This document shows positions 44,146-62,200 of a stretch of DNA of 64,000 nucleotides, in pieces. Origin of the DNA: Lachnospiraceae bacterium. Lineage in GTDB: Bacteria > Bacillota > Clostridia > Lachnospirales > Lachnospiraceae. The notes under the pieces are model-generated. The model had not been told where the DNA came from and ran no database searches. It was given only the letters and a program-made list of their open reading frames with translations. Numbering within the stretch: position 1 is the first letter of the stretch; the number at the start of each line of letters is the position of its first letter. The DNA lies in assembly GCA_017620255.1 (NCBI GenBank), contig JAFZQU010000022.1:1-64000 (forward strand), given 5' to 3'. The translations under genes and the position numbers were made by a program.

Positions 44146-46059
44146 ATGAAAGATTTATGGATGGAAAAAAGACAGATCACGATCAGAAGAGCGGTCCTGA
44201 TCCTTTATGACATCATTGCGGTGGCGCTTGCCACCTATCTCGGCCTGATCGCGCGTTTTGATTTCAGGCCGGGCGATATCGCTGACCAGCGGTTTGTACA
44301 GACGGCATGGAATTATCTGCCGTTCAGTATCGTGATCACGATCCTTTTGTTCTGGGTCTTCAAGATGTACCAGAGCCTCTGGGAATTTGCCGGGACGCAT
44401 GAAGTTGTGAACATGGGTGTGGCTTGCTTCTTCTCCGCCTTTTCCCAGATGATCATCGTGCATGTGATCCTGCACTGGAGTTATCCGAGAAGTTCCTATC
44501 TCTTTTACGGCGGCTTCCTGCTCGTGCTGATCGCGATCAGCCGGTTCTTCTACAGGGCATTGCGCGCATTTGTGGAAAAACGTACGGCAGGCGCACAGGC
44601 CGTGAACGTCATGGTGATCGGTGCCGGTGAGGCCGGGAATTCCCTGATCAGGGAAATGCGTTCTTCCAGTTACATCCAGAAGAACGCGCTCTGCGTGATC
44701 GACGATGACAAGAGCAAGACAGGCAGTTATATCCACGGCGTCAAGGTTGTCGGCGGCAGGGAAAAGATCCTTGAGAATGTTGCAAAATATCATATCGACG
44801 AGATCATCATCGCGATCCCGTCCGCACCCAAGGCAACGATCAGAGAGATCCTGGAGATCTGCAAGCAGACCAAGTGCGAACTGAAAACGCTGCCCGGTAT
44901 TTACCAGCTGGTGAACGGGGAAGTCAACGTTTCCCAGCTGCGGAAGGTGGATGTGGCCGACCTGCTCGGCAGAGAGCAGATCCGTGTGGACCTCGATTCC
45001 ATCATGGGCTATGTAAAAGACAAGGTTGTGCTCGTGACGGGCGGAGGCGGATCCATCGGATCGGAACTGTGCCGTCAGCTTGCAGCCAACCAGCCCAGAC
45101 AGCTGATCATTTTTGATATCTATGAAAACGGTGCTTATGACATCCAGCAGGAACTGCGCAGATCCCATCCGGAACTGCAGCTTGAAGTGATGATCGGATC
45201 CGTGCGCAACAGCAGACGTGTGAACCGGATCTTCGAGCAGTACCGGCCGGATATCGTATATCACGCAGCGGCGCACAAGCATGTGCCGTTAATGGAGGAT
45301 TCCCCGAACGAGGCGATCAAGAACAATGTACTCGGCACCTGGAAGGTCGCGGAAGCGGCCGTCGCATACGGCGCAGAGAAATTTGTGATGATCTCCACGG
45401 ATAAGGCGGTCAACCCGACCAATATCATGGGTGCGAGCAAACGTATCTGTGAGATGATCGTACAGGCTTATAACGGCAGGGGAAAAACGGATTTCGTCGC
45501 GGTCCGTTTCGGCAACGTGCTCGGCAGCAACGGCAGCGTGATCCCGCTGTTTAAAAAACAGATCGCGGAGGGCGGTCCCGTTACGGTCACGCATCCGAAC
45601 ATCATCCGGTATTTCATGACGATCCCGGAGGCGGTATCCCTGGTACTGCAGGCCGGCGCCTATGCAAAAGGCGGAGAGATCTTTGTACTGGAGATGGGGG
45701 AACCGGTGCGGATCTTGGACCTTGCGATCAACCTGATCCGCCTGTCCGGTTTTGTACCGGGAGAGGACATCAAGATCAAATTCACGGGCCTGCGTCCCGG
45801 CGAAAAACTCTATGAGGAAATGCTCATGGAAGAAGAGGGACTGCAGGAGACGGCGAACAAACTGATCCATATCGGTAAGCCGATCGAGTTCGACGAAAAA
45901 GAGTTTTTCGAACAGTTAAACGAATTAAAAGAAGAAGCATATGAGGAAGCGGATCCGGAGACGATCCGCGAATGGGTAAAACGCCTGGTACCGACCTATA
46001 TGCTGAAGGCGGACGAGCGGCATCCCGTTGTGGATGCGGCCGTACATATAGACGACTGA
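44146..46059 (+). CDS. PglF/CapD-like UDP-GlcNAc 4,6-dehydratase, membrane-bound
   Basis: The 637-residue protein has four N-terminal membrane helices (about 15-145), a Rossmann-like domain (about 150-260, MVIGAGEAGNSLIREM), and an extended SDR domain from about 295. This has VTGGGGSIGSELCRQL near 296-311, AAAHKHVPLMEDSP near 372 and MGASKRICEMI near 428, where Met replaces the usual catalytic Tyr as in PglF and FlaA1-like dehydratases. PglF makes the 4-keto-6-deoxy sugar that a PglE-type aminotransferase uses. Such an enzyme follows 16 bases later, followed by a PglC-like transferase, the same functional series as in bacillosamine synthesis. Confidence 0.92.
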   Translation: MKDLWMEKRQITIRRAVLILYDIIAVALATYLGLIARFDFRPGDIADQRFVQTAWNYLPFSIVITILLFWVFKMYQSLWEFAGTHEVVNMGVACFFSAFSQMIIVHVILHWSYPRSSYLFYGGFLLVLIAISRFFYRALRAFVEKRTAGAQAVNVMVIGAGEAGNSLIREMRSSSYIQKNALCVIDDDKSKTGSYIHGVKVVGGREKILENVAKYHIDEIIIAIPSAPKATIREILEICKQTKCELKTLPGIYQLVNGEVNVSQLRKVDVADLLGREQIRVDLDSIMGYVKDKVVLVTGGGGSIGSELCRQLAANQPRQLIIFDIYENGAYDIQQELRRSHPELQLEVMIGSVRNSRRVNRIFEQYRPDIVYHAAAHKHVPLMEDSPNEAIKNNVLGTWKVAEAAVAYGAEKFVMISTDKAVNPTNIMGASKRICEMIVQAYNGRGKTDFVAVRFGNVLGSNGSVIPLFKKQIAEGGPVTVTHPNIIRYFMTIPEAVSLVLQAGAYAKGGEIFVLEMGEPVRILDLAINLIRLSGFVPGEDIKIKFTGLRPGEKLYEEMLMEEEGLQETANKLIHIGKPIEFDEKEFFEQLNELKEEAYEEADPETIREWVKRLVPTYMLKADERHPVVDAAVHIDD

Positions 46060-46075
46060 TAAGGAGAACCGTATT

Positions 46076-47200
46076 TTGAAAAGGATCTATCTTTCTTCCC
46101 CGACCATGCACGGGGAAGAACTGCAATTTGTACAGGAAGCGTTTGATACCAACTGGATCGCACCGCTTGGACCGAATGTGGCCGGGTTTGAAGAGGAGTT
46201 TGCGGCTTTTCTGCAGGGAGGCGCACATACGGCTGCGCTCAGTGCCGGGTCTGCCGCCATTCATCTTGCGATGATCTTAAGCGGCGTCGGACGGGACGAT
46301 ATCGTGTTCGGTTCCGACCTGACTTTTGCGGCCACCGTGAACCCGATCACGTATGTCGGTGCGAAGCCGGTCTTTATCGATTCGGAGAGGGATACATGGA
46401 ATATGGATCCTGTAGCGCTCGAGGCCGCGTTTGAACGTTATCCGCAGGTAAAAGCCGTGATCTGTGCAAACCTGTACGGAACCCCGGCGAAACTGGATGA
46501 GATCGCGAAGATCTGCAGGGCACATCGGGTCCCTTTCATTGAGGATGCGGCGGAATCCCTCGGCGCGACGCTTCACGGAAAACAGACGGGACTGTTTGGC
46601 GATATCGGGATCTTCTCCTTCAACGGAAACAAGATCATCACCACGTCAGGCGGCGGGATGTTAGTCAGCAGGGATGAAACCGTTACGAAAAAAGCGACCT
46701 TCCTTGCAACACAGGCCAGAGAGCCGGCAAGACATTACGAGCATAAAGAGATTGGTTTTAACTACCGCATGAGCAATATTGTGGCAGGCGTCGGCAGGGG
46801 GCAGTTAAAGCACCTTGAAGAGCATATCGCAGCCAAGAAAAAGATCTATATGCAGTACCGGGATGCCTTTTCGGATATCCCTGCAATCCGCATGAATCCG
46901 TACCTTGAAGAGAGCGAGCCGAATTTCTGGTTAAGCTGCATCACGATCGACCCTGTGAGCCCCGTAAAACCGCTTGCGATCATGGAAGCGTTTGATAAAG
47001 AGAACATCGAATGTCGTCCGATCTGGAAGCCGATGCATATGCAGCCCGTATATGCGGAGAATGCATATGTGACGGCAAAAGAGGGCAGCAGCGTTTCGGA
47101 AGAGATCTATTCGACAGGCCTGTGCCTGCCTTCGGACATCAAGAACACGGAGGCCGACATGGAGCGGATCATCGGCGTTGTCAGGAGTTTCTTCTCATGA
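46076..47200 (+). CDS. PglE-like DegT/DnrJ/EryC1 sugar aminotransferase
   Basis: This 374-residue PLP enzyme is expected to aminate the 4-keto sugar made by the upstream dehydratase. The opening RIYLSSPTMHGEELQFVQEAF and LGPNVAGFEEEFA match PglE-type enzymes. The PLP lysine is in FSFNGNKIITTSGGGMLV near residue 187, and EDAAESLGA near 157 holds the PLP-stacking and pyridine-binding residues. The start is TTG 46076 with AAGGAG 9 bases before it. It overlaps the PglC-like gene by 4 bases. Confidence 0.9.
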   Translation: MKRIYLSSPTMHGEELQFVQEAFDTNWIAPLGPNVAGFEEEFAAFLQGGAHTAALSAGSAAIHLAMILSGVGRDDIVFGSDLTFAATVNPITYVGAKPVFIDSERDTWNMDPVALEAAFERYPQVKAVICANLYGTPAKLDEIAKICRAHRVPFIEDAAESLGATLHGKQTGLFGDIGIFSFNGNKIITTSGGGMLVSRDETVTKKATFLATQAREPARHYEHKEIGFNYRMSNIVAGVGRGQLKHLEEHIAAKKKIYMQYRDAFSDIPAIRMNPYLEESEPNFWLSCITIDPVSPVKPLAIMEAFDKENIECRPIWKPMHMQPVYAENAYVTAKEGSSVSEEIYSTGLCLPSDIKNTEADMERIIGVVRSFFS

Positions 47201-47865
47201 TCTATGCAAAAGGCGTCAAAAGAATCCTGGATGTCCTGATCGCGGCAGTATGTATTCTGCTGCTGTCCTGGCTGTATCTGATCCTTGCGCTGATCATACG
47301 GATCAGGCTCGGCAGTCCCGTGATCTTTCATCAGGACAGGCCCGGCAGGGGCGGAAAGATCTTTCCGCTGTATAAATTCAGGTCCATGTCCAATGAACGC
47401 GATGCGGAGGGAAATCTGCTGCCGGATGAAAAGCGCCTGACTTCTTTCGGAAAGAAACTGCGTGCAAGCAGCCTGGACGAACTTCCGGAACTGTTCAACA
47501 TCCTGAAGGGAGATATGAGCCTGATCGGTCCGAGACCGCTGCTCATCAGGTATCTGCCGTATTATACAAAAGAAGAATTCAGAAGGCATGATGTCAGACC
47601 GGGACTTACGGGACTGGCGCAGGTCAACGGCAGGAACGCACTCGGCTGGGAAGACAGATTCCGCTATGACCTTGCGTATGTGGACCATCTTACCTTCCTG
47701 ACAGACCTAAAGATCGTGTTTGCGTCCGTTGGCAAGGTGCTTAAGGGATCCGGCTCTCTTTCGGGAGATGCGCAGACCGTGGCGGACCTGGACGCATACA
47801 GAAGAGAACAGATCGAAACGGGACAGATCGACAGAAACGATCTCATGGGAGACCAATATGAATAA
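47197..47865 (+). CDS. PglC-like monotopic phosphoglycosyl transferase
   Basis: From ATG 47197 (ATGA overlap) the protein is 222 residues, the compact PglC size: one re-entrant N-terminal helix (about 8-30) and the catalytic domain. The Asp-Glu dyad lies in ASSLDELPELFNILKGD near residue 91-107, with SLIGPRPLLIRYLP and GLTGLAQVNGRNALGWEDR after it. PglC transfers a diacetamido-bacillosamine-type sugar phosphate to undecaprenyl phosphate. This is the second initiating enzyme in the locus and is likely specific for the sugar made by the two genes before it. It overlaps the next gene by 8 bases. Confidence 0.93.
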   Translation: MIYAKGVKRILDVLIAAVCILLLSWLYLILALIIRIRLGSPVIFHQDRPGRGGKIFPLYKFRSMSNERDAEGNLLPDEKRLTSFGKKLRASSLDELPELFNILKGDMSLIGPRPLLIRYLPYYTKEEFRRHDVRPGLTGLAQVNGRNALGWEDRFRYDLAYVDHLTFLTDLKIVFASVGKVLKGSGSLSGDAQTVADLDAYRREQIETGQIDRNDLMGDQYE

Positions 47866-48823
47866 GATCGCGCTGTTTGAGCATCCGCTCAGATCAACGC
47901 CGCTCGTGGAATGCGCGGGCCAGTATTGTGACAACCGCATATGGATCAAACGGGATGATCTGATCCCTTTCTGTTTCGGCGGAAACAAGGCAAGAAAAGC
48001 CGCCGAGTTTTATCATGTCCTGAAAGAAACGGACACGGATCTGTTAATGACCTACGGAAGCAACTGCAGCAATCATTGCAGGGTGATCGCCAATCTGGCT
48101 TTTGCGCTCGGTGTGCATTGTCATATCATCTCTCCCGATTCAAAGGAAGAGGATTCCTTTAACCGTCTGATGACGGAACAGTTCGGTGCAACGGTGGAAA
48201 CCTGTCCCGTATCGGAAGTGTCCGATACGATCGACCGTGCCATGGCATCCTTTACGGAAAAGGGCAGAAAGCCCTACTTTATCATGGGCGGCGGACACGG
48301 CATACCCGGCTGCAATGCATATGTGAAGGCCTATGAAGAGATCCTTCTGCAGCAGCTGGAATACGGTGTTGATTTTGACCTGATCTGTCATGCATCGGGT
48401 ACCGGCTCCACACAGGCAGGGCTCACCTGCGGCAGGCTCATGCATGCACATTCCGGAAAAAAATGCCCGCAGGTGGTCGGGATCAGTATCGCAAGAGAAG
48501 CAAAACGTGGCAGAGAGGTGATAAGGGAGAGCATCGCCGAATATCTCGGTGAGCGTTATGAAGAACTGTACCGGGATGCGGACCTGATCTTTACGGATAA
48601 ATACCGCCTGGGCGGTTACGGCAATTATAACGAAGAGGTCGCACAGCTGATCGGCAAGGTCATGTCCCACGAGGGGATCCCCATGGATACGACCTATGTC
48701 GGAAAAGCGTTCTGCGGGATGTTGAAATACCTGCGCGAAAAGCGCATCAGCGGAAAGAACATCCTGTTCATCCACACGGGCGGAACGCCGCTGTATTTTG
48801 ATCATCTGAAAGGACTGTCATGA
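47858..48823 (+). CDS. PLP-dependent enzyme, ACC deaminase/D-cysteine desulfhydrase family
   Basis: From ATG 47858 the product is 321 residues and has fold-type II PLP motifs: KRDDLIPFCFGGNKARKAAE (about residues 28-47, PLP lysine near 44), YGSNCSNHCRVIANLA near 66-81 (phosphate side), and GTGSTQAGLTCGR near 182-194. The longer frame upstream is rejected because GGGAG and an 8-base overlap with the PglC-like gene serve the ATG. Family members act on ACC, D-cysteine or other small amino acids. In this setting it may make or process an amino or keto acid used to decorate a sugar, because an ATP-grasp gene overlaps it by 4 bases. The substrate is unknown. Confidence 0.88.
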   Translation: MNKIALFEHPLRSTPLVECAGQYCDNRIWIKRDDLIPFCFGGNKARKAAEFYHVLKETDTDLLMTYGSNCSNHCRVIANLAFALGVHCHIISPDSKEEDSFNRLMTEQFGATVETCPVSEVSDTIDRAMASFTEKGRKPYFIMGGGHGIPGCNAYVKAYEEILLQQLEYGVDFDLICHASGTGSTQAGLTCGRLMHAHSGKKCPQVVGISIAREAKRGREVIRESIAEYLGERYEELYRDADLIFTDKYRLGGYGNYNEEVAQLIGKVMSHEGIPMDTTYVGKAFCGMLKYLREKRISGKNILFIHTGGTPLYFDHLKGLS

Positions 48824-49803
48824 ATATTCTGATCTTAAGCGCCGGCACGCGCAACAAAGTAGTGCAGGCATTTAAAACGGCATTACACGGAAAAGGCCGC
48901 GTGATCGCGACGGACTGCTCCAATCTGGCGCCTGCGATCTATGAGGCCGATGCGTATTATATCGTGCCGCGGATCACGGAAGAGGGGTATATCGAAAAGA
49001 TCCTGGATATCTGCAGAAGAGAACAGATCACGGGCGTCTTTTCCCTGATCGACCCGGAACTGTCCCTGCTCGCAAAAGAGAGAGACCGGTTTTTGGAGAT
49101 CGGTACGACACCCGTTGTTTCCGACTATGATCTGGTGGAAACCTGTTTTGACAAATACCGTTTTTACAAGCTGATGAAAAAGATGAAGATCCCGACGGCA
49201 AAGTGCTATACGGATCTGTATAAATTTCTCGATGATCTTGACCATGCAAAGATCCTCTATCCGGTCTTTGCAAAGCCGGTCTGCGGAAGCGCGAGCATCA
49301 ACATCAGCCGCGTGGAAAGCGATGATGAGGCGGCCGTGCTCTTTGCAAGACATGATGACCTGATGATCCAGGAATTCATGGACGGACAGGAATACGGTGC
49401 GGATGTATATGTGGATCTGATCAGCGGAAAGTGCACGCACATCTTTCTCAAGAAAAAGATCAAGATGCGCGCGGGCGAAACGGACAAAGCCGTTTCCGTG
49501 AAGAATGAGGCGCTCTTTGCAAAGATCGTTTCGCTGGTGGAACAACTGCCGTTTAAGGGCATGATCGATATCGACCTTTTTGATATGGACGGAACGTTTT
49601 ACTTCTCGGAGATCAATCCCCGTTTCGGCGGCGGCTATCCGCACGCATATGCCTGCGGCGTGGATTTTCCGGCACTCCTTGTGAGAAATCTGGAAGGACT
49701 TGAAAATCAGCCTGCGATCGGGAAATATGCGGAAAACATCTGCATGATGAAATACAATGAAGTGTGCATCCGTGATTTTAACGGAAAGGAGATCATTCCG
49801 TAG
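48820..49803 (+). CDS. ATP-grasp carboxylate-amine ligase-like protein
   Basis: The 327-residue protein has a pre-ATP-grasp N-terminal domain (MNILILSAGTRNKVVQAF) and an ATP-grasp domain with CFDKYRFYKLMKKM near residue 107, YPVFAKPVCGSASINI near 147 and the Mg-binding INPRFGGGYPHAY near 265-277. ATP-grasp ligases of this kind join a carboxylate to an amine. Placed after PglF, PglE and PglC homologues and a PLP enzyme, it may acylate the 4-amino sugar, as the ATP-grasp domain of Neisseria PglB2 does with glycerate. This is inference. No PglD acetyltransferase is present in the window. Confidence 0.88.
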   Translation: MNILILSAGTRNKVVQAFKTALHGKGRVIATDCSNLAPAIYEADAYYIVPRITEEGYIEKILDICRREQITGVFSLIDPELSLLAKERDRFLEIGTTPVVSDYDLVETCFDKYRFYKLMKKMKIPTAKCYTDLYKFLDDLDHAKILYPVFAKPVCGSASINISRVESDDEAAVLFARHDDLMIQEFMDGQEYGADVYVDLISGKCTHIFLKKKIKMRAGETDKAVSVKNEALFAKIVSLVEQLPFKGMIDIDLFDMDGTFYFSEINPRFGGGYPHAYACGVDFPALLVRNLEGLENQPAIGKYAENICMMKYNEVCIRDFNGKEIIP

Positions 49804-49804
49804 G

Positions 49805-50986
49805 ATGAAGATCCTTTATTTAACGCTCAGCAGGATCGACCTGAAAAAACAGGGGATCTATTCCGACCTGATCAACGCGCTGAAAGACGCGGGACATGCG
49901 GTAACGCTTGTGCAGGTAATGGAAAGCGGCAAAAAGGAGCAGACAGGCCTCTCCAACGAGGAGGATGTTACGATCCTGAGAGTCGCGGTCGGAGCGCTGT
50001 TTAACGTCAATTTCATCACGAAGGGCATCAATACGGTCAAGATCGGACCGCTTGTGAAGGCAGCGATCAAAAAATATCTAAAGGATGCGGATTTCGACCT
50101 GGTCCTTTATGCGACACCGCCCATCACCTTTGCGGGCGTTGTGAAATATGCGAAAAAAAGATACGGCTGCAGATCCTTCCTGATGCTGAAGGACATCTTC
50201 CCGCAGAATGCGGCGGATATCGGATTGTTTTCCGAAAAAGGCCCGCTCTACCTGTATTTCCGTGGCAGGGAACGCGCGCTCTATGCGCTTTCCGACCGGA
50301 TCGGCTGTATGTCCGCGGGTAACAGGGAATACCTTCTTGCCCACAATCCGTCCCTGCCGCCCGAAAAAGTATCGATCTTTCCAAACACCATGCGGGTATC
50401 GGAAAGGACCGGTGAGCCCTATGTCAGGAAGAGCGGCGAACCCCTGCGGGTTGTGTTTGGCGGCAATTTCGGAAGGCCGCAGGCGATCGGCTTTCTGATC
50501 GACGCGATCGCAGATCCCGGGATGCAGGAGATCAACGCGAGATTCCTTTTCGTCGGCAACGGATCGGAGACGGAGAAAGTCAGGGAAGCGGCAGAGAGAC
50601 TTCCCAACATGGAATACATACCCTTTATGGAACCGGATAAATATGACGCGTTCATGCAGTCCTGCGATGTCGGCCTGATCTCGCTTGACCACAGGTTCAC
50701 GATCCCGAATTATCCGTCCAGGATCTTAAGTTATATGGCGATGGCCAAGCCGGTGATCGCCTGCACGGATCCGGTGACGGACATGCGCAAACTGGTCGAG
50801 GAAGAGGCCGGATGCGGGCTGTGGTGTGAAAGCAACGACACGGATGCCTTCAGGGAATGCGTCAGGAAACTGGAAGCAGACCCTGCGTTTGCGGCAAAAC
50901 TAGGCGAATGCGGCAGACAGTATCTGGAAACACATTTTGATGTGGCAGGATCTGTGAAAAAGATCGAAGAAATGATGAAAGGATAA
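49805..50986 (+). CDS. WbuB-like family 4 glycosyltransferase
   Basis: From ATG 49805, one base after the previous stop, the GT-B enzyme is 393 residues. It has MKILYLTLSRIDLKKQGIYS at the N-terminus (here cut to 20 residues), the nucleotide-sugar domain from about 195 with VVFGGNFGRPQAIGFL near 218, and the C-terminal conserved stretch NYPSRILSYMAMAKPVIAC near 301-319. WbuB in E. coli O26 transfers N-acetyl-L-fucosamine; the UDP-FucNAc genes lie directly downstream, which fits. AAGGAG is 13 bases upstream. The specificity is an inference from order. Confidence 0.86.
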   Translation: MKILYLTLSRIDLKKQGIYSDLINALKDAGHAVTLVQVMESGKKEQTGLSNEEDVTILRVAVGALFNVNFITKGINTVKIGPLVKAAIKKYLKDADFDLVLYATPPITFAGVVKYAKKRYGCRSFLMLKDIFPQNAADIGLFSEKGPLYLYFRGRERALYALSDRIGCMSAGNREYLLAHNPSLPPEKVSIFPNTMRVSERTGEPYVRKSGEPLRVVFGGNFGRPQAIGFLIDAIADPGMQEINARFLFVGNGSETEKVREAAERLPNMEYIPFMEPDKYDAFMQSCDVGLISLDHRFTIPNYPSRILSYMAMAKPVIACTDPVTDMRKLVEEEAGCGLWCESNDTDAFRECVRKLEADPAFAAKLGECGRQYLETHFDVAGSVKKIEEMMKG

Positions 50987-50995
50987 AAGAGAGCG

Positions 50996-52021
50996 ATGTT
51001 TGAGAACAAGACACTTCTGATCACAGGCGGGACCGGATCGTTCGGAAATGCGGTACTGAACCGTTTCCTGGAAACAGAGATCGGAGAGATCCGTATTTTC
51101 TCGCGTGATGAAAAAAAGCAGGACGACATGCGGCATCTCTACAAGAATCCGAAGATCAAATACTATATCGGAGACGTGCGCAATCCGCAGAGTTTAAAGG
51201 ACGCCATGCATGGCGTGGATTATATATTCCATGCGGCTGCCCTCAAACAGGTGCCGAGCTGTGAATTCTTCCCGATGGAAGCAGTCAGGACCAACGTGAT
51301 CGGAACCGATAATATGCTCAACGCCGCGATCGAAGCGGGTGTCAAAAAAGTCATCTGCCTCTCGACGGATAAGGCGGCATACCCGATCAACGCGATGGGG
51401 ACGAGCAAGGCGATGATGGAAAAGGTGTTCGTGGCAAAATCACGGACCGTGGACCCTGAGAAAACGATGATCTGCGGGACCAGATACGGCAACGTGATGT
51501 GCTCGAGAGGTTCCGTGATCCCGCTCTTCATTGAGCAGATCAAGGCAGGGGAAGCGCTCACGGTGACAGAGCCCAAAATGACACGTTTCATCATGAGTCT
51601 GGAAGAAGCGGTGGAACTCGTGATCTTCGCGTTTGAAAACGCACAGGCAGGCGATATCATGGTACAGAAAGCACCGGCCTGCACGATCGAAGTGCTTGCA
51701 CAGGCGGTACGTGAACTGTTCCATGCGGATAACGAGATCAGGGTGATCGGGATCAGGCATGGCGAAAAAATGTATGAGACGCTCTTAACCAACGAGGAAT
51801 GCGCAAGGGCAACAGACCTGGGCGCATACTACAGAGTGCCGGCTGACCAGCGCGATCTCAACTATGACAAATACTTTACGCAGGGCAATGCCGAGCGGAG
51901 CAAATTAACGGAGTTTAATTCGAACAATACAACGATCCTTGATGTGGAGCAGGTGAAGGAAAAACTGCTCAAGCTGCAGTACATCCGGGATGAACTGGCC
52001 GAATGGGAGATGAACAGATAA
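50996..52021 (+). CDS. capE: CapE/FnlA-type UDP-GlcNAc 4,6-dehydratase/epimerase
   Basis: The first enzyme of UDP-N-acetyl-L-fucosamine synthesis, converting UDP-GlcNAc to 4-keto-6-deoxy products with inversion at C5 and C3. The 341-residue protein has ITGGTGSFGNAVLNRFL at residues 8-24, FSRDEKKQDDMR near 40, and NAMGTSKAMMEKVF near 132-145 with Met in place of the usual Tyr, a CapE/FnlA feature. CapF and CapG homologues follow directly, so the set of three is complete. ATG 50996 is 9 bases after the previous stop. Confidence 0.93.
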   Translation: MFENKTLLITGGTGSFGNAVLNRFLETEIGEIRIFSRDEKKQDDMRHLYKNPKIKYYIGDVRNPQSLKDAMHGVDYIFHAAALKQVPSCEFFPMEAVRTNVIGTDNMLNAAIEAGVKKVICLSTDKAAYPINAMGTSKAMMEKVFVAKSRTVDPEKTMICGTRYGNVMCSRGSVIPLFIEQIKAGEALTVTEPKMTRFIMSLEEAVELVIFAFENAQAGDIMVQKAPACTIEVLAQAVRELFHADNEIRVIGIRHGEKMYETLLTNEECARATDLGAYYRVPADQRDLNYDKYFTQGNAERSKLTEFNSNNTTILDVEQVKEKLLKLQYIRDELAEWEMNR

Positions 52022-53170
52022 ATGAAAAACGACCGGAAGATCCTCGTGACAGGAGCGCTTGGGTTCATCGGCAGAAACCTGATCACGGAACTGCATAACC
52101 GCGGATATGATAATATCTGTGAATGCGACCGGGAGACAACGGCAGAAGAACTGGACGCATATCTGGCTGACTGCTCGTTTGTTTTTCATCTGGCGGGGAT
52201 TAACCGACCGAAGGTCGAGAGTGAATTTACGGAAGGAAACCGTGACTTCACAGAGACCCTGCTGACGGGCCTGCAGCGAGCGGATAATCCCTGTGGCGTC
52301 CTGATCTCCTCCTCGATCCAGGCGGAACTGGACAACCCGTACGGCAAGAGCAAGCTTGCGGCGGAAGGACTTGTTTCTTCCTATGCGCGGCAGACGGGTG
52401 CGCCCGTTTTCATCTACCGTCTTCCGGGGGTGTTCGGGAAGTGGTGCCGGCCGAATTACAACAGCGTGGTCGCCACGTTCTGCTATCAGATCGCGAGAGG
52501 ACTTCCCATCACGGTCAACGATCCGGATAAGGTCATTTCCCTGGTGTATATCGATGACGTGGTAAATGCGTTCATCACTACCATGGAAGGACGGGGTGAT
52601 TTTGACGGGACATTCTGCAGGGTAAGCCCCGTGCACGAGATCTCGCTGCGTTCTCTTGCCGAAAGCATTCAGGCTTTCCGTGAGAGCAGATCCAGCCTGT
52701 TTGTACCGGATCTCGGAGACCCGTTGCAAAAGAAACTCTACAGCACCTATTTAAGTTACCTGGCGGAGGATGATTTTGCCTATCCGCTGAACATGCATAA
52801 GGATGCACGCGGATCCTTTACCGAGTTCCTGAAAACGGAACAGTTCGGGCAGGTATCCGTAAATGTGGCGCACCCCGGGATCACCAAGGGAAACCACTGG
52901 CATCATACCAAAAACGAAAAGTTCCTTGTGGTCAAGGGACAAGCCTGCCTCCGTTTCAGGAAGGTGGGAGAGACCGAGGTCATTTCCTATAACGTGAGCG
53001 GTGAGGACCTGCAGGTGATCGATATCCCGACAGGCTATACGCACAGCATCACGAACACGGGAGAGGAAGACCTGGTCACGATCATCTGGGCCAACGAGAC
53101 ATTTGATCCGGAGAGACCGGATACCTATTTTGAAGAAGTTCTGATCAGTCCACAGGAGGGAGAAGCATGA
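52022..53170 (+). CDS. capF: CapF/FnlB-type bifunctional reductase with cupin domain
   Basis: CapF epimerises and reduces the CapE product toward UDP-N-acetyl-L-6-deoxytalosamine. The 382-residue protein combines an SDR reductase (GALGFIGRNLITEL near residue 11, NPYGKSKLAAEGL near 105 with Tyr/Lys) and a C-terminal cupin (HPGITKGNHWHHTKNEKFLV near 285, whose histidines bind the metal). This fusion is typical only of CapF/FnlB. The ATG directly follows the CapE stop, and it overlaps CapG by 4 bases. Confidence 0.94.
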   Translation: MKNDRKILVTGALGFIGRNLITELHNRGYDNICECDRETTAEELDAYLADCSFVFHLAGINRPKVESEFTEGNRDFTETLLTGLQRADNPCGVLISSSIQAELDNPYGKSKLAAEGLVSSYARQTGAPVFIYRLPGVFGKWCRPNYNSVVATFCYQIARGLPITVNDPDKVISLVYIDDVVNAFITTMEGRGDFDGTFCRVSPVHEISLRSLAESIQAFRESRSSLFVPDLGDPLQKKLYSTYLSYLAEDDFAYPLNMHKDARGSFTEFLKTEQFGQVSVNVAHPGITKGNHWHHTKNEKFLVVKGQACLRFRKVGETEVISYNVSGEDLQVIDIPTGYTHSITNTGEEDLVTIIWANETFDPERPDTYFEEVLISPQEGEA

Positions 53171-54294
53171 GCAAACTGAAACTGATGACCATCGTCGGAA
53201 CGAGACCGGAGATCATCCGGTTGTCCGAAGTCATCAAATGTGCAGACAGGTATTTTGATCATATTCTGGTGCATACGGGACAGAACTATGACTATACGCT
53301 GAACCAGATCTTTTTTGAGGACTTAAAGCTCAGGGAGCCGGATCACTATCTGGAATGCGTCGGTGCGGACCTGGGCGAGACCATGGGAAACATCATCGCA
53401 AAATCCTATGCGATCCTCTCAAAGGAACGGCCGGACGCCCTGCTGATCCTCGGCGATACGAATTCGGCACTCAGCGCGATCAGTGCAAAACGCCTGAAGA
53501 TCCCCATTTTTCACATGGAAGCGGGTAACCGCTGCTGGGACTTCAACGTATCCGAGATGATCAACCGTAAGATCGTGGACCATATTTCCGACATCAACCT
53601 GCCCTACACGGAGCATTCGCGCCGTTACCTGCTTTCGGAAGGCGTCGACGGCAAGACGGTCTTTGTCACGGGATCTCCGATGCAGGAAGTGCTGAATGTT
53701 CATGCGGACCGGATCAAAAACAGCGACGTGCTTGACCGCCTTAACCTTACAGGCGGGCAGTACATCCTTGTTTCCGCCCACAGGGAGGAAAACATCGACA
53801 TAGAGAAGAATTTCATGGATCTGATGGAGGCGATCAACGCCATTGCGGAGACCTATCAGATGCCGGTCATTTATTCCACGCATCCGAGATCGCGCAAGTT
53901 CATCGAGGAGCGGCATTTTACTTTCCATCCGCTCGTGCAGTCGCTTAAGCCCTTCGGATTCTTTGATTATAACCATCTGCAGATGAATGCGTTCTGCGTG
54001 CTTTCCGACAGCGGAACCCTTTCCGAGGAATCGGCCATGCTGCACTTCCCGGGCGTCCTGATCCGCACCAGTACGGAGCGGCCGGAGGTTCTAGACCGCG
54101 GGTCGGTTGTGATCGGCGGGATCAAAAAAGAGGATGTTCTGCAGGCAACGGAGCTGGCGGTCGCCATGTTCCGAAACGACGAGCCTGTTGCGACCGTACC
54201 CGACTACACAGACACCAATGTCTCCGTCAAGGTGGTCAAACTGATCGAGAGTTACACCAAGATCGTGAACAAAACGGTCTGGCTGAAGGATTGA
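53167..54294 (+). CDS. capG: CapG/FnlC-type UDP-sugar 2-epimerase, non-hydrolysing
   Basis: The third enzyme gives UDP-N-acetyl-L-fucosamine by 2-epimerisation. The 375-residue GT-B-like epimerase has IVGTRPEIIRLSEV at residues 9-22, VHTGQNYDYTLNQIFF near 37, MEAGNRCWD near 117, SAHREENID near 200 and DSGTLSEESAMLHFPGV near 280, all family signatures. It belongs to the CapEFG unit and starts inside the CapF stop (ATGA). A simple WecB-type role is possible but less likely in this context. Confidence 0.93.
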   Translation: MSKLKLMTIVGTRPEIIRLSEVIKCADRYFDHILVHTGQNYDYTLNQIFFEDLKLREPDHYLECVGADLGETMGNIIAKSYAILSKERPDALLILGDTNSALSAISAKRLKIPIFHMEAGNRCWDFNVSEMINRKIVDHISDINLPYTEHSRRYLLSEGVDGKTVFVTGSPMQEVLNVHADRIKNSDVLDRLNLTGGQYILVSAHREENIDIEKNFMDLMEAINAIAETYQMPVIYSTHPRSRKFIEERHFTFHPLVQSLKPFGFFDYNHLQMNAFCVLSDSGTLSEESAMLHFPGVLIRTSTERPEVLDRGSVVIGGIKKEDVLQATELAVAMFRNDEPVATVPDYTDTNVSVKVVKLIESYTKIVNKTVWLKD

Positions 54295-56531: not shown

Positions 56532-57530
56532 TTGGAACCAAAGAAGATCAGCATCATTTCGATCATATATCAGGTGGAGCCCTATTTGCGGCAATGTCTG
56601 GACAGTTTACTTGCACAGACCTATTCGGACCTCGAATTTATCCTGGTCGTCGGCGTGCATGAGGATGCGGCAAAAAACGACCGCTGCCTTGAGATCTGTG
56701 AAGAATATGCCAAACGGGATGCGCGCATCATACTCGTTAAAAGACCTGCGAAAGGGATCGCGGATGCAAGGAATGCAGGGATTGAAGCGGCACACGGAGA
56801 CCTGATCGGCTTTGTGGACGGAGACGACTGGGTAGAGCCGGATATGTTTGCAGTCCTTGTAGATGACATGGATAGCACCGGAAGTGATGTCGCGGTCTGC
56901 GGAAGATATTACGAGTTTCAAAATCACACAAAGCAGGATCCCGTATCCGATCCCGTCGTGCAGACCGGTGAGGAGAGTATGCGCATGATCTTAAGCGGGA
57001 CAGGCTATTTCCTGCATCTGTGGGACAAGCTCTTTGTGCGCCGCCTGTGGGAAGGCGTTGTCTTCCCGACGGACTTTGTGGTGGAGGACAGGATCATTGT
57101 CGGAAAACTGCTCGGATCGGCAGAGAGGATCTGCTATCGCAGTACCCCGAAATACCATTTCAGGGAACGCGGCGGCTCCAATTCCAAACGGAGCGGGATG
57201 GAGTTCTATAACGCGGAGGCGAACCGGCTGCTCTGTGAACAGGCGGGGAAGATGTTTCCGGGACTCAAAGACGAGATCGGACGGTTTTACCTGCAGGAAA
57301 CGCTGACATCCCTGCAAAACCTTCTTCTGGTAAAGGACCGTGATCCTGCGGAAGTGAAGAAATTCGTGCGCGAGATCCGGAGCATTGCAAAAGAAAATGC
57401 GGATAATCCGCTGATCGGAAAGACACTAAAGATCAAAACGCAGCTTGCCAGATTTTGTCCGGCGCTGCTTCAATGCATAACCCGTTCGCATCAGAAACGG
57501 GACAAGGGAGAGAACATACGGTATGAGTGA
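56532..57530 (+). CDS. Family 2 glycosyltransferase
   Basis: The 332-residue enzyme starts at TTG 56532 with AAGGAG six bases upstream. It has SIISIIYQVEPYLRQCLDSL near residue 7-26, a recognisable GT-A opening, then NAGIEAAHGDLIGFVDGDDW near 82-101 with the DxD motif. A C-terminal extension of about 80 helical residues follows the catalytic domain. It overlaps the next gene by 8 bases. The substrate is unknown. Confidence 0.9.
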   Translation: MEPKKISIISIIYQVEPYLRQCLDSLLAQTYSDLEFILVVGVHEDAAKNDRCLEICEEYAKRDARIILVKRPAKGIADARNAGIEAAHGDLIGFVDGDDWVEPDMFAVLVDDMDSTGSDVAVCGRYYEFQNHTKQDPVSDPVVQTGEESMRMILSGTGYFLHLWDKLFVRRLWEGVVFPTDFVVEDRIIVGKLLGSAERICYRSTPKYHFRERGGSNSKRSGMEFYNAEANRLLCEQAGKMFPGLKDEIGRFYLQETLTSLQNLLLVKDRDPAEVKKFVREIRSIAKENADNPLIGKTLKIKTQLARFCPALLQCITRSHQKRDKGENIRYE

Positions 57531-59133
57531 ACCGCAGATCTTTCAGAATAAAAGGATCCTGTTCGTGTGCAGGGAAACCTATTCCAAACCCCTGTGGTTT
57601 GTGGCCAGGGATTATATCGAGGCAGGCAATGAGGTGGCTGCCTTCTTTATCATGTCCTCGGAGTGTTCTTACCGGAAATGTTACTACAACGAAAACACCT
57701 ACTACCGGTTCAAAGAGGAACTGCCGGGACTGAAACTCTATGACGTAAGGGACATCTGCGATACATACACGGCACGCCTGCATGAGAAGCAGCCGGCCGC
57801 CGACATGGAATATCTGGCCTCGATCGAGGAAAAGTATTCACACTTTAAGAACCTCAACATGCAGTTAATGTGTTCGCAGGAGAATACAAAGCACTATCAC
57901 TGGCGCTATTACTGGACGGTCACGAATTTCGAAGAGAACATGATCTGGCTGGAACTCAACTACAAAAAGATCCTGTCTGTTTTTGATGAGTTTAAGCCGG
58001 ATATGATCCTGGATTTTGACAACGCGGAGCTGCAACGTACGATCATCAATGAAGTTGCTTACGCAAAGGGTATACCGTATATCACGGTCGAGTATTCCAA
58101 GTTCGGCTACTATAAATACCCGACATTCCAGAATACGATCGGGATCGATGACTATGTCCGGGAAACCTATGAGAAGAATCTGAAGAAATCCAAAGAAGAA
58201 ATGGCGGAATCCTATGCGTACATAGAAGATTACCGGAACCGTTCCACGATCATGAACAAGGAGTTTGCGGGAACCGTGACGGCACAGTACAAGCGGGATT
58301 CGCTGATCTGGATCCTGCGTGTGATGCGTGGAAAAGTCCACTATTTCTGGAACATGGACATCTCGGCCGGGAATCTGAAGCTGAAAAAGACCAATAAGAT
58401 CCTTTATGCACCGAGCCTGCCTTATATCCGGCACTATCTGCAGACAATGCTGATCCGTCGGAAATACATGGGTAAAAACAAACTGTTTGAAGCACCGGTT
58501 GCCGGAGAAGACTATGTCTACATGCCGCTGCACCTGATCCCCGAATCCACCGTTTTTGTCAAGGCTTCCTACTACGTGGATGAACTGAACCTGATCGAAC
58601 AGGTCAGCAAGTCGCTTCCCGCAGGCTGGAAACTGTATGTGAAAGAACACCAGGCCATGCTTGGCGAGCGCGGGATCGATTTTTACAAAAAAGTCAGGGA
58701 ACTGCATAATGTCAGACTGGTACAGGTGAATTATTACGACGATCCGAAACCGTGGATCACCGGCGCAAAAGGTGTGGTCACGATCGTAGGGACAACCGCG
58801 TTTGAAGAAGCACTGATGGGAAGAAGATCCGTGATCTTCGGCGATGTGCCGTTCGAGCTGATCAACGGGATCGACAAGATCAGTGATTTTGAAGAACTGC
58901 CGGAAAAGATCCGGGCATTCGGAGAGATCGACAACATCCATTCCTGCGCGGCGTATCTGGAGACGATCAAGGAGATCGGCGTGGAGATCGACCTGTTCTA
59001 CCTGATGGACGAAGCGGACAAAGTGCTTGGTAAAAAGGTTGAAGAAAGTGAGAAATTCAAGGACCAGATCGGGAGGCTGAAGGAGTTCTACCACAAGGGC
59101 TACAGCAGGTATCTGGCAGAAAAGGAAAGATAA
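57523..59133 (+). CDS. Capsule polysaccharide synthesis family protein (retaining Kdo-transferase/KpsC-like fold)
   Basis: A 536-residue soluble protein. The C-terminal half has MPLHLIPESTVFVKASYYVD near residue 329-348, LYVKEHQAMLGERG near 370 and VGTTAFEEALMGRRSVIFGD near 422-441. Together with WKLYVKEH these are typical of the capsule-synthesis superfamily that includes KpsC/KpsS-like transferases. It is the last gene of block B. The window has no KpsMT-type ABC transporter and no Kdo synthesis genes, so it is likely a glycosyltransferase of another specificity. A terminator follows at 59151. Confidence 0.82.
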   Translation: MSEPQIFQNKRILFVCRETYSKPLWFVARDYIEAGNEVAAFFIMSSECSYRKCYYNENTYYRFKEELPGLKLYDVRDICDTYTARLHEKQPAADMEYLASIEEKYSHFKNLNMQLMCSQENTKHYHWRYYWTVTNFEENMIWLELNYKKILSVFDEFKPDMILDFDNAELQRTIINEVAYAKGIPYITVEYSKFGYYKYPTFQNTIGIDDYVRETYEKNLKKSKEEMAESYAYIEDYRNRSTIMNKEFAGTVTAQYKRDSLIWILRVMRGKVHYFWNMDISAGNLKLKKTNKILYAPSLPYIRHYLQTMLIRRKYMGKNKLFEAPVAGEDYVYMPLHLIPESTVFVKASYYVDELNLIEQVSKSLPAGWKLYVKEHQAMLGERGIDFYKKVRELHNVRLVQVNYYDDPKPWITGAKGVVTIVGTTAFEEALMGRRSVIFGDVPFELINGIDKISDFEELPEKIRAFGEIDNIHSCAAYLETIKEIGVEIDLFYLMDEADKVLGKKVEESEKFKDQIGRLKEFYHKGYSRYLAEKER

Positions 59134-59244: not shown

Positions 59245-62200
59245 ATGAAAAATAAGATCAAAACCATTTTCTGCATGATCATGGCATTGATGCTTCTCCT
59301 GACGATGTTTCCGTACGCGGATCCTGTTCATGCGGAGGAAGCCGGGGATGTTTTGCAGGAGGAAACCCCAGTCCCCATACAGGAGGCGGAAGGGGATCTT
59401 CTTTCTGAAGCGGCGGAAGATACCCAGCCCGAAGAACAGACAGAAGATGGGGAAAGACTCGGTCTCAATAAGGAAACCGTCACGAATGCCCTGACCGGCG
59501 CGCAGTATTCCTATGTTGCAGGAACACATACCCATACATACAGACTTACTGAGAATGTAGCCCTTTTGGAGCCGCTCGTACTGCATTCGGATACGGCCGG
59601 AGAGACGGTCGTGGTCGACTTAAACGGCTACACGATCACGGGCGCTGCGGGAGTATCAGGTGCATATGAAGACTCTGAAGCGGGAAGGGAAAACGCCAGA
59701 GGAAAGGCTGCGATCCTGATCGAAGCCGCAAAGTTCAATGTTACGATCAAAGGCCCTGGGACAATTGTAGGGGGCAAAGGAGCTGTTTTTCAGAATTCCG
59801 ATACCGGATACCGATTCGGGTGCAGGGGCGGGAATGCGATCCTCTTAACCTGCGGGGATGACACCTATTACCCGGAAAATGAACTGGAATATGCCCTGAC
59901 GGTTACGGGCGGCGCGCAGATCCTGGGCGGCGACGGCGGAGACGTTACTTATGAGGACTGGGAACAAAATCTGAGAGTCAACGGTGAGGGAATGTCTTCG
60001 GCAGACGCCGGAGACGGCGGCTGCGGGATCACACAGGTCTGCAACGGCTCTTATACCCCGGAATACAGATCACAGAACGCATACCGGGAGAAGGTTTTCT
60101 TAAAATATCTGATCGAGAATGCAGAGGTGTCCGGCGGAAAGGGGGGCTGCTTCCTTGGCGGTGACCATTCTTTTTCTCATTATGCACTTCGAAACAACGC
60201 TCTGATCAAAGAATATCTGCAAAATGGCGAGCACCCTCTCAGTAACATCGGTGCCGGCCTGGGTGCCGGGAACGGCGGCAGCGGGATCGAGTACTACTGG
60301 GGTAGAAAATATATTTATATCGGGGAAGATTCACACATATCCGGCGGAACGGGCGGACAGGTGATCCTTTCGGATACAGCGGCGTTAACAAATAAGGCAG
60401 GCATCAGTAACGGAGAAGGCGGTGCCGGGATCATGGCCTGCGGGGATATCGGCCTTACCAACACTGCACCGACGCTTTCCCTGTTATCAGAGAGCGATGC
60501 TTATTGGACAAAGAAGGATAAAGACAGTCCGGATATCGGTCTTTGGATCGATGGGACCGTCACCGGCGGAAATACAGCCGATGCTTTTACCAGACAGCAG
60601 TCTTCCGAATATGCGGGACATGCCATCCTGATGGATGGGGATGCGTGGCATACCGAGTATGACTACTATGGGTGTTACAACGGCGTATGGGGGATCATTG
60701 CGGTAGGAGAGACCGGAACCGTAGCGGGCGGAAATGCCGGGAACGCCGTTTGGGGAGATGGAGGGCCCGGAGGGAGCGGGTTTTTTGAAAACCGGGATGA
60801 TAACGGACGATACGCCCAGTGTGACTGTTTTATCATCAGGGGAAAGGTTTCGGGTGGAAACGGAGGCAATTCTCTTTGCGGCAGTAACAATTCGGGAAGT
60901 CAGTACGGGTTTTCGACAAGCCTCGCGGAGATCGGACAGCCGGGAAGCGGCGGTCATGGTTTCCGCTATGATCAATATAAAAGGGCCGGTGTGACGATCG
61001 CGGGAGACGGAGAGATCAGCGCCGGGACGGGCGGGCATACCTCCAGACGCGGCGGTGAGAATGCTCCCGCTTTTTATGATACCTATTATGAACCCTGGTA
61101 TACGGGCAGTGCCGTGGAGGAAGCGGTTAATTATCTGTCAGAGACAGGAAGTTTCTGTGATCCGGCGCTGACACTTCATGATGAAAAATCCCTGTATATC
61201 GATGAAATGGATGCGACAGGACTCAGTGCAACAGCTTCCATGGATCCGTTCAGTTGGTTCTGGAATGATGAGAAGAAAAGCGGAGATGTCACGCTGTCTG
61301 ATGATACGAGAATCTGGGTGGAGACCACGCTGCCTGACGGATATGAAGGAAAGGTCTATTATGATTGGCGCGCTGTCTTTTCGGATACTAGGACCGGTGA
61401 GGTGACGAATTTTACAGTGGGGTACGGTCGCTATGAAACGGATCTCGGAAGCAGCCGCGCTTTTACATTTGGAGAAGCGGAGCTTCCGTTGGATGATTTT
61501 ATTAAATTCGCATCACTCCTGGGAAATAACGGGAATGCAAAGACCACGTTCTACTGCTATATCATGCTCGAAGACGGGCGGTATGTAAAGAGCAGCCCGG
61601 TTATCTTTTATAATAACGGCCGGGGTTACGGCAACGGAGACAATCCGGGTCCGGGACCCGGCCCCGGACCGATCATCGATCCCCTGCCCGTAGAGGATGA
61701 TGAAGACGTTACCGGGGTGACTTTGAACACGGATGCTCTGACACTGTATCCCGGCGACACAAGCAGGCTTTATGCCATCATAAATCCGGCAGGGGCGGCG
61801 GATAAGACCCTATGGTGGGAATGTAGCGATGAGGACGGAGAGTTTGTCACGGTGGATGACGGTCTTGTCACGGCGATCAAAGCCGGCACCGATCCGGAGG
61901 ATCCCGGGAAACAGACCCCCGTTTCCGTAACGGTCATTGCCTATGCAAACGGTGCAGCAGAAGGAGAAGAGGTATCTGATCAGTGTATCGTGACGGTTTT
62001 GCCCTCGGAAGTGACGGACAAAGACGAAGAGGGTCAGCCGATCGAGCCGGGGCCGGAACTGACAACCGATAATGAAACAGGCCTTGCCAGGATCTGGGTG
62101 TCCGGTCTGAAAGAGGAATACTACTATACGGGCAATGCCGTAAAACCGGAGATCCATGTCTATAACGGTCATCGGCTGCTTGAAGCAGGAAAAGACTATA

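Follow-up and report, generated by a model that had tools for sequence, protein, structure and literature searches.

In a 64,000-nucleotide stretch of DNA from a Lachnospiraceae bacterium (assembly GCA_017620255.1, contig JAFZQU010000022.1, positions 1 to 64,000; hereafter the window), five consecutive forward-strand genes at 44146..49803 form a cassette that we suggest makes an aminoacylated bacillosamine-type sugar for a surface polysaccharide, an overall explanation drawn from sequence to which we give slightly better than even chances. The first three genes resemble pglF, pglE and pglC of the bacillosamine (Pgl) pathway, no gene for the N-acetyltransferase PglD accompanies them, and the last two encode a fold-type II pyridoxal phosphate (PLP) enzyme and an ATP-grasp ligase. 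The original prediction for this locus, made from the letters alone, held that the pair may acylate the 4-amino group of the sugar in the manner of Neisseria PglB2, with an acid that the PLP enzyme makes or trims. The analysis partly supports it: a real and conserved unit had been seen and the guess at the reaction class is likely right, but the more likely acyl group is now an amino acid, made by the PLP enzyme, in place of a hydroxy acid. The pair is a variant on Pgl-type N-acylation, which is already known.

The open reading frames (ORFs) lie where they were predicted. They encode a PglF-like membrane UDP-N-acetylglucosamine (UDP-GlcNAc) 4,6-dehydratase of 637 aa (44146..46059; PF02719 and PF13727; 5bju, WlaL, 1.5e-87), a PglE-like UDP-4-keto-sugar aminotransferase with a TTG start (46076..47200; best solved matches 1o61, 2e-80, and 4ztc, 1e-79), a PglC-like phosphoglycosyl transferase (47197..47865; PF02397, 198 bits; best solved match 8e37/8g1n, 2.7e-66), the PLP enzyme (47858..48823; PF00291, 111 bits, above the Pfam cut-off) and a putative carboxylate-amine ligase of the NF009406/PRK12767 type (48820..49803; 489.5 bits against a cut-off of 271; PF21360). 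The predicted overlaps are exact, being 8 bases between the PglC and PLP ORFs (47858-47865) and 4 bases between the PLP and ATP-grasp ORFs (48820-48823); the PglE and PglC ORFs likewise overlap by 4 bases (47197-47200). The 8e37/8g1n entry is named N,N'-diacetylbacillosaminyl-1-phosphate transferase; we take 8e37 to come from Campylobacter concisus, WlaL to be PglF of C. jejuni, and 1o61 and 4ztc to be PglE of C. jejuni. The dehydratase, aminotransferase and phosphoglycosyl transferase are closest to Campylobacter-type structures. PglF-, PglE- and PglC-type enzymes occur together here, as in the bacillosamine pathway up to the 4-amino sugar, and we hold it highly probable that the sugar is of this bacillosamine type. 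The Campylobacter PglF-PglE-PglD-PglC pathway has PglD, whereas the window has the ATP-grasp ligase and the PLP enzyme.

The host genome (2.93 Mb in 48 contigs, 99.8% complete) carries the window on a 171-kb contig, and the PglE-like gene is the only close copy found in it, other matches being 27-31% identical. Two further species of the genus share the five-gene order, with ~80% identity in the PLP enzyme and 82-85% in the ligase, and both proteins are under purifying selection on amino acids (ratio of nonsynonymous to synonymous substitution rates, dN/dS, about 0.07-0.13, a rough figure since dS exceeds 1). A chance neighbourhood of the PLP and ligase genes was rejected because the order is kept in related species, the ligase is a constant partner and selection is purifying.

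To survey this partnership we took the window and the best 80 of at least 434 confirmed relatives of the PLP enzyme in the genome collection, giving 81 loci (numbered with the prefix L) that were annotated by ORF and homology. Cultured kin are among the relatives, for example Virgibacillus senegalensis, Oceanobacillus bengalensis, Halobacillus faecis and Lachnospiraceae bacterium NK3A20. An ATP-grasp ligase is fused to the PLP enzyme or lies within 3.3 kb of it in 77 of the 81. In 53 loci the partner is of the window type (identity of 49% or more), in 10 it belongs to a distant PRK12767 type (24-36%) and in 12 to an amino-acid-ligase type, assigned by similarity to an L122 protein that shows Pfam LAL_C2; the other two have ATP-grasp-PLP fusions. 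The control was 27 ordinary loci resembling those of D-cysteine desulfhydrase (DCyD), L009-L035, which are the best matches after the three closest and have flanks of about 1.5 kb; with similarly short flanks, an ATP-grasp gene is found in 72/81 clade loci versus 1/27 control loci. The predicted functional unit is borne out by this pairing and by the gene order in the two related species. In the fusions, the ATP-grasp lies on the N side of a clade PLP enzyme (L122:8765-10975 and L125:8729-10975, in Blautia-type genomes), and next door are a second ATP-grasp, of the amino-acid-ligase type, and small membrane proteins judged by eye to resemble EmrE. A protein of ~510 aa stands between PLP enzyme and ligase at three loci (L084:7073-8602, L111:9273-10799, L141:10879-12429); it resembles an asparagine-synthetase-type ATP pyrophosphatase by eye and gave no Pfam match in L084 and L111, the two scanned.

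The ligase also occurs by itself. Among 299 genomes of the phylum, proteins like the PLP enzyme (E 1e-20) were found in 65 and ligase-like proteins (E 1e-25) in 23, the two being adjacent in four. Because the ligase is found at some loci that lack the PLP enzyme (L050-L053, L171, L176 and L181), we consider the ligase to be the fixed component and the PLP enzyme to be optional. This would be the pattern if ordinary acids or amino acids suffice for some ligases while others need a special one. At L050, which has no PLP enzyme, three similar genes lie between the PglC-like gene and the ligase (L050:10853-13906), and the one scanned is weakly FemAB-like. More distant PRK12767 ATP-grasps stand beside genes that appear by eye to be HAD hydrolase-like and nonulosonic-acid-like in L055-L059, perhaps for another acyl group.

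The missing PglD of the original prediction was confirmed for the locus. No PglD-type ORF was found in the 64-kb window with a PglD profile, which matched just the PglF ORF, weakly (2e-5), and TIGR03570 searched against the window's contig likewise gave just a weak match to that ORF; the locus has no PglD-type N-acetyltransferase of the kind that an N,N'-diacetylbacillosamine (diNAcBac) product calls for. This profile, like that for GNAT acetyltransferases, was built from sequences gathered in this analysis, and loci at contig ends may hide genes. A count of PglD next to PglE-PglC pairs was made on the 41 strongest of 57 PglE matches in the 299 genomes (at least 47% identity; 16 weaker ones left out) plus the window and L050-L053. 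It yielded 34 PglE-PglC loci, of which 16 have PglD, 8 have an ATP-grasp of the window-ligase kind, none has both and 10 have neither. The exclusion gives a two-sided Fisher p of 0.0031, or 0.046 when just the five close ligases (at least 42% identity) are counted, in a test that treats related genomes as independent and a table read by eye; the other three of the eight ligases are distant (30-32%: L171, L176, L181), and among the 34 PglC-like genes that of L167 lies on the other strand and that of L182 is merely 34% identical. Since PglD and the ligase never co-occur among these loci, the comparison supports the view that the ligase stands in PglD's place beside PglE-PglC, as in a PglB2-type system. 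Among the 16 matches left out, L061 (42%) pairs its aminotransferase with a neighbouring ATP-grasp, and the ORFs viewed there include no PglC-like gene.

The tie to amino sugars is close at the 53 window-type loci. All have a PglC-like gene, 44 have a PglE-like aminotransferase (at least 43% identity) and 48 have some sugar aminotransferase within 6 kb, those lacking such a match being L077, L078, L092, L106 and L112. A PglF-related gene lies upstream at 38 of the 53, and five have a PglD-like gene somewhere in the stretch, one of them within 3 kb. A pair found widely without amino-sugar genes had been named as grounds for abandoning the proposal; for the window type this is not what we see, and loci with other types of ligase give a more mixed picture, taken up below. 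We think it quite likely that the ligase acts on N4 of the sugar.

What the ligase joins was approached through family and fold. NF009406 (PRK12767.1-5), to which it belongs by the score given above, is named merely 'carbamoyl phosphate synthase-like'; all 31 sequences of the ligase alignment (31 of the 59 available) match this model at E <=1e-10, and four sister PRK12767 models match equally. The family name carries no tested function, and the role is one that we propose here. The N domain is of the PylC-like type (PF21360), and the AlphaFold model (mean predicted local distance difference test score, pLDDT, 93.4), made with the same 31 sequences, is ranked by Foldseek closest to 2pn1 (45% identity in the alignment), then to PylC (4ffl/4ffr) and then to biotin-dependent carboxylases; two amino acid ligases come further down, 3vot (rank 11) and 4wd3 (rank 47). 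In a profile search of solved sequences, 2pn1 and carbamoyl-phosphate synthase are followed by L-amino acid ligase and VanA/Ddl ligases. PylC, in NCBIfam the 3-methylornithine--L-lysine ligase, joins the carboxylate of a D-amino acid (3-methyl-D-ornithine) to an amine. The window ligase shares its ATP-grasp layout and N domain, but is 19% identical to it and reaches 35 bits against the PylC cut-off of 248, a resemblance in fold alone. That the ligase joins an amino acid carboxylate to an amine would be the natural guess.

The PLP enzyme has the PALP fold and falls in the D-cysteine desulfhydrase/1-aminocyclopropane-1-carboxylate (ACC) deaminase branch; its predicted structure (pLDDT 94.9), made with 34 of the 79 available sequences, finds D-cysteine desulfhydrase as best fold match. 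It scores below the cut-offs of all eight NCBIfam models that it matches, reaching at best 140 bits versus 429 for DCyD, and 119 versus 392 and 131 versus 550 bits for ACC deaminase. In a tree of the window enzyme, its relatives from 79 of the 80 loci (L141, with its PLP gene in two pieces, was left out) and the 27 ordinary DCyD-like proteins, the window enzyme and its 79 relatives form a clade separate from the ordinary proteins (support 100/100). An alignment of 34 of the 79 available clade sequences shows Lys51, Ser78, Asn79, Tyr261 and Tyr287 (numbering of the D-cysteine desulfhydrase StDCyD) conserved in all 34, and the position of Gln77 never occupied by Gln (S 18, R 9, C 3, K 2, T 1, A 1). 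The residue after the catalytic Tyr is Thr in 24 and Val in 10, never the Glu of ACC deaminase, which we take to be Glu295 (compare the T288E mutant of StDCyD). Passages of the StDCyD study, which includes that mutant, describe Tyr287 as removing the alpha proton of D-substrates, place the alpha proton of L-Ser so that it would face Lys51, and attribute D-Cys specificity to Gln77 and Ser78 (PMC3344862).

Because the catalytic residues are kept and Gln77 is never Gln, the PLP enzyme is probably a working enzyme that acts on an amino acid other than as a D-cysteine desulfhydrase. A Lys and a Tyr on opposite sides of the substrate suggest, by analogy, an arrangement that would suit a racemase. 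A hint that D-amino acids are involved comes from three Izimaplasma loci, where the gene after the PLP gene belongs to one cluster and in L119 encodes an M55 D-aminopeptidase (DppA-like; L119:10921-11730); the L119 stretch shows no sugar-gene matches. We consider a D-configured donor possible, at somewhat less than even chances. Every cell wall pathway already yields D-Ala, so only a rarer amino acid would call for the PLP enzyme. The sequence family of the enzyme would fit ordinary D-cysteine or ACC catabolism genes that landed in the operon, and the fold and core catalytic residues are indeed shared with D-cysteine desulfhydrase, ACC deaminase and CuyA; we regard this as very improbable, given a clade of its own, scores below every NCBIfam cut-off, the absent specificity Gln and a ligase partner in 77/81 loci. 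Simple D-cysteine or ACC catabolism was rejected on the first three of these grounds.

The nature of the acyl group is indicated by the capping enzymes that accompany the pair. At 28/53 window-type loci the cassette contains an amine-acylating enzyme or a second ATP-grasp: a GNAT at 24 loci, a FemAB-like protein at L085, a formyltransferase at L086 and a second ATP-grasp at L095 and L110, that of L095 being assigned by hand because it falls below the script cut-off and is visible in Pfam. In six window-type loci (three checked by Pfam) the PLP enzyme bears the GNAT as an N-terminal fusion, and at two other-type loci (L037/L121, which are one locus, and L137) it bears a different GNAT at its C-terminus; a formyltransferase-like match occurs at the other-type locus L124. 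As the cap can be fused at either end of the PLP enzyme, it is tied to that enzyme's product, which should therefore keep an amine; amine-capping enzymes both in the cassette and fused to the PLP enzyme argue that the acyl group is an amino acid and not a hydroxy acid. We hold an amino acid to be reasonably likely. The second ATP-grasp in L095 and L110 is followed by another gene (HAD phosphatase-like by Pfam in L095 and of the same cluster in L110), both lying between the PglC-like gene and the PLP enzyme (L095:8256-10023, L110:8337-10005).

The caps also bear on a PglB2-like alternative, in which the PLP enzyme is a lyase giving a keto acid, or a hydroxy acid derived from it, that the ligase attaches to the 4-amine. 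Its nearest named relatives (D-cysteine desulfhydrase, the sulfo-lyase CuyA and ACC deaminase) eliminate or deaminate, and PglB2, which would attach a glycerate-derived group, offers a precedent: passages of PMC11130364 present it as the ATP-grasp/phosphoglycosyl transferase responsible for glyceramido-acetamido-trideoxyhexose (GATDH), and a passage of PMC6959607 has its C-terminal domain 'proposed' to transfer the glycerol moiety. As these descriptions go, PglB2 shares with the window an ATP-grasp tied to a PglC-type domain and a non-acetyl acyl group on the same kind of sugar. It is, however, one fused protein that makes a glyceramido sugar, whereas the window ligase is separate and has a PLP partner, with amine caps in relatives. 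Amine-capping partners and GNAT-PLP fusions make best sense with a remaining amine, and the cassette shows no conspicuously conserved reductase, judging by cluster labels, so we consider a lyase unlikely. Of the original prediction, the comparisons support an ATP-grasp ligase in PglD's place and the PLP enzyme as its dedicated partner; a hydroxy acid as in PglB2 and the trimming are disfavoured by the amine caps and their fusions to the PLP enzyme.

Another possibility is that the pair amidates the carboxyl of a uronic acid with an amino acid, the 4-amine being acetylated by a GNAT or left free. A cluster labelled by eye as UDP-sugar dehydrogenase occurs in 24/81 loci and is absent from the window stretch compared, and the GNATs of L036 and L053 match PseH, an enzyme that acetylates a 4-amine, below its cut-off and after a spermidine acetyltransferase model. 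In the window, L063 and L064 no such dehydrogenase is present among the six genes to the left and right, and the ligase occupies the PglD slot and was never seen with PglD among the 34 loci, including at L051, where no PLP enzyme or GNAT was found, and at L052, where the sole GNAT match is 7.7 kb away. We judge the uronic acid route to be rather unlikely. A GNAT as general substitute for PglD was rejected on the same two loci, at which the ligase replaces PglD.

Several observations weigh against aminoacylation of a bacillosamine-type sugar by this pair. Biotin-dependent carboxylases score nearly as high as PylC in the Foldseek comparison. To our knowledge, DCyD-family enzymes are mostly lyases and no racemase is known in the PLP clade, in which, moreover, the position of StDCyD His80 is not uniformly conserved (H 24, L 9, M 1). 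No ATP-grasp was found at four of the 81 PLP loci (L089 and the Izimaplasma loci L116, L118 and L119), and ten of the 34 PglE-PglC loci carry neither PglD nor ligase. Among the loci with other ligase types, 11/24 have no aminotransferase match within 6 kb, so that service to amino sugars is a weaker claim for the PLP clade outside the window type; the remaining 13 do have one, several lying by eye among dTDP-sugar genes. A GNAT-profile match 8-10 kb upstream in 12/20 named members of the window's clade means that 'uncapped' may not hold for the whole clade, and L107 and L113 carry two GNATs, one of which might acetylate the sugar itself.

The host genome also holds a PglD-like gene; one that acts on this sugar had been named as a finding that would count against the proposal. 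The gene found lies at the end of contig 10 (G000:C10:12341-12934, L149), scores above the curated cut-off (181 versus 160.8 bits) and encodes a PglD/NeuD-like protein with PglD_N and hexapeptide domains that could in principle act on the window's sugar. The 4-amine might then be acetylated in trans by this protein, or else stay free as in 2-acetamido-4-amino-2,4,6-trideoxygalactose (AATGal), and the pair would modify something else. The contig-10 gene adjoins ORFs that resemble glycosyltransferases and a flippase by eye, and sits in another polysaccharide-type locus; together with the replacement pattern over 34 loci, this makes such an arrangement improbable in our view.

Returning to the aminoacylation route, the following sequence of steps would account for the cassette. 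On strong family-level grounds, PglF and PglE would convert UDP-GlcNAc to UDP-2-acetamido-4-amino-2,4,6-trideoxyhexose. The ligase would activate an amino acid carboxylate as an acyl phosphate and form an amide with the 4-amine, instead of the acetylation by PglD. We lean towards the PLP enzyme as the maker of this acyl donor, which it would most likely obtain from a common amino acid through racemisation or some other conversion; a special amino acid would explain why it is present in just some ligase loci. In many relatives the amine of the attached amino acid would then be capped by a GNAT, formyltransferase or FemAB-like enzyme. In the window's 21-row clade no cap lies within 2.7 kb upstream of the PLP gene, and the GNAT profile has no match in the 64-kb window or in two further stretches of the same contig; as this lineage has no capping gene beside the PLP-ligase pair, the window sugar may carry a free amine. 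PglC would load the sugar phosphate onto undecaprenyl phosphate, and a family 4 glycosyltransferase (GT4) would add what is probably N-acetyl-L-fucosamine (L-FucNAc).

The genes downstream fit such a second sugar. The GT4 gene (49805..50986, forward strand; PF13692/PF00534) probably adds it, and genes of its cluster (c19) come after the ligase in L063, L064, L075, L086, L104, L108 and L109. UDP-L-FucNAc-type genes follow on the same strand (50996..54294) and likely supply it: FnlA-like (TIGR04130, 536 bits, below the cut-off of 730), FnlB/WbjC-like (NF047837, 449 bits, below 500) and FnlC/WecB-like (the wecB model TIGR00236, 224.8 bits, above 210). Two window proteins have no Pfam match at 1e-5 (57523-59133, 536 aa; 59245-63885, 1546 aa). 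Just past the window, genes that by eye are NeuB-like and nucleotidyltransferase-like (L153:4032-8213, G000:C29) suggest a nonulosonic acid in the same region. The two nearest named kin of the window are Lachnospiraceae metagenome genomes, one of sheep rumen origin.

Chemical precedents for aminoacylated amino sugars come from Gram-negative bacteria. Reportedly, the O-antigen of Shigella dysenteriae 7 has 4-amino-4,6-dideoxyglucose (Qui4N) bearing an N-acetylglycyl group. Passages of PMC3210612 list aminoacylated amino sugars in Gram-negative O-antigen structures, with N-acetyl-D-alanyl on Qui4N and its 3-amino isomer Qui3N (as in Pseudoalteromonas strains) and N-acetylglycyl on Qui4N among known polysaccharide groups, and give the Qui4N of Escherichia coli O121 as N-acetylglycylated. 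In the O121 cluster the aminotransferase, WbqC and GNAT genes are consecutive, and we infer that WbqC attaches the glycine; O121 thus resembles the relatives of the window in an amino-sugar amine bearing an N-acetylated amino acid, but uses WbqC rather than a PLP enzyme and ATP-grasp, and a dTDP sugar. A link to the taurine-peptidyl glycan of Clostridioides difficile flagellin was dropped, as no gene link was found in the parts of PMC5207245 consulted. A full-text search of open-access literature, as far as the texts were accessible in it, found no paper on an ATP-grasp/PLP route to aminoacylated amino sugars.

The cassette reaches beyond the Bacillota. It occurs on E. coli plasmids (four records at least 99% identical, in 4/5426 E. 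coli genomes) in a cluster with rfbA, dTDP-glucose dehydratase, lipopolysaccharide-biosynthesis, aminotransferase, GNAT, PLP, ATP-grasp and glycosyltransferase genes; in L196 (NZ_LR890610.1, 13691-36700) the plasmid is small and insertion-sequence genes flank this O-antigen-type cluster. Over its first 587 bases, the plasmid aminotransferase gene shows 68.5% identity to vioA (Qui4N). Genes for a sugar transferase, a PLP enzyme, a GNAT, an ATP-grasp and an aminotransferase also occur together on a plasmid of Sphingobium. We tentatively suggest, at a little under even chances, a modular system in which the PLP clade makes an unusual (D-) amino acid, several ATP-grasps attach it to UDP- or dTDP-amino sugars, and acetyl, formyl and aminoacyl caps are interchangeable.

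Looking forward, the locus offers a testable enzyme pair and a rule that predicts which loci make aminoacylated amino sugars, and it would explain the absence of PglD from a share of Bacillota PglE-PglC loci. The ligase and PLP enzyme could also serve as tools for putting amino acids on sugars. If the modular system is real, bacterial surface amino sugars with D-aminoacyl or other unusual aminoacyl groups would for the first time be traced to genes and enzymes; one branch, for bacillosamine, would belong to the Bacillota and another, of the Qui4N type, would extend to Pseudomonadota plasmids. The amines of the first sugar, whether free or capped, would alter the charge and antigenicity of the polysaccharide.

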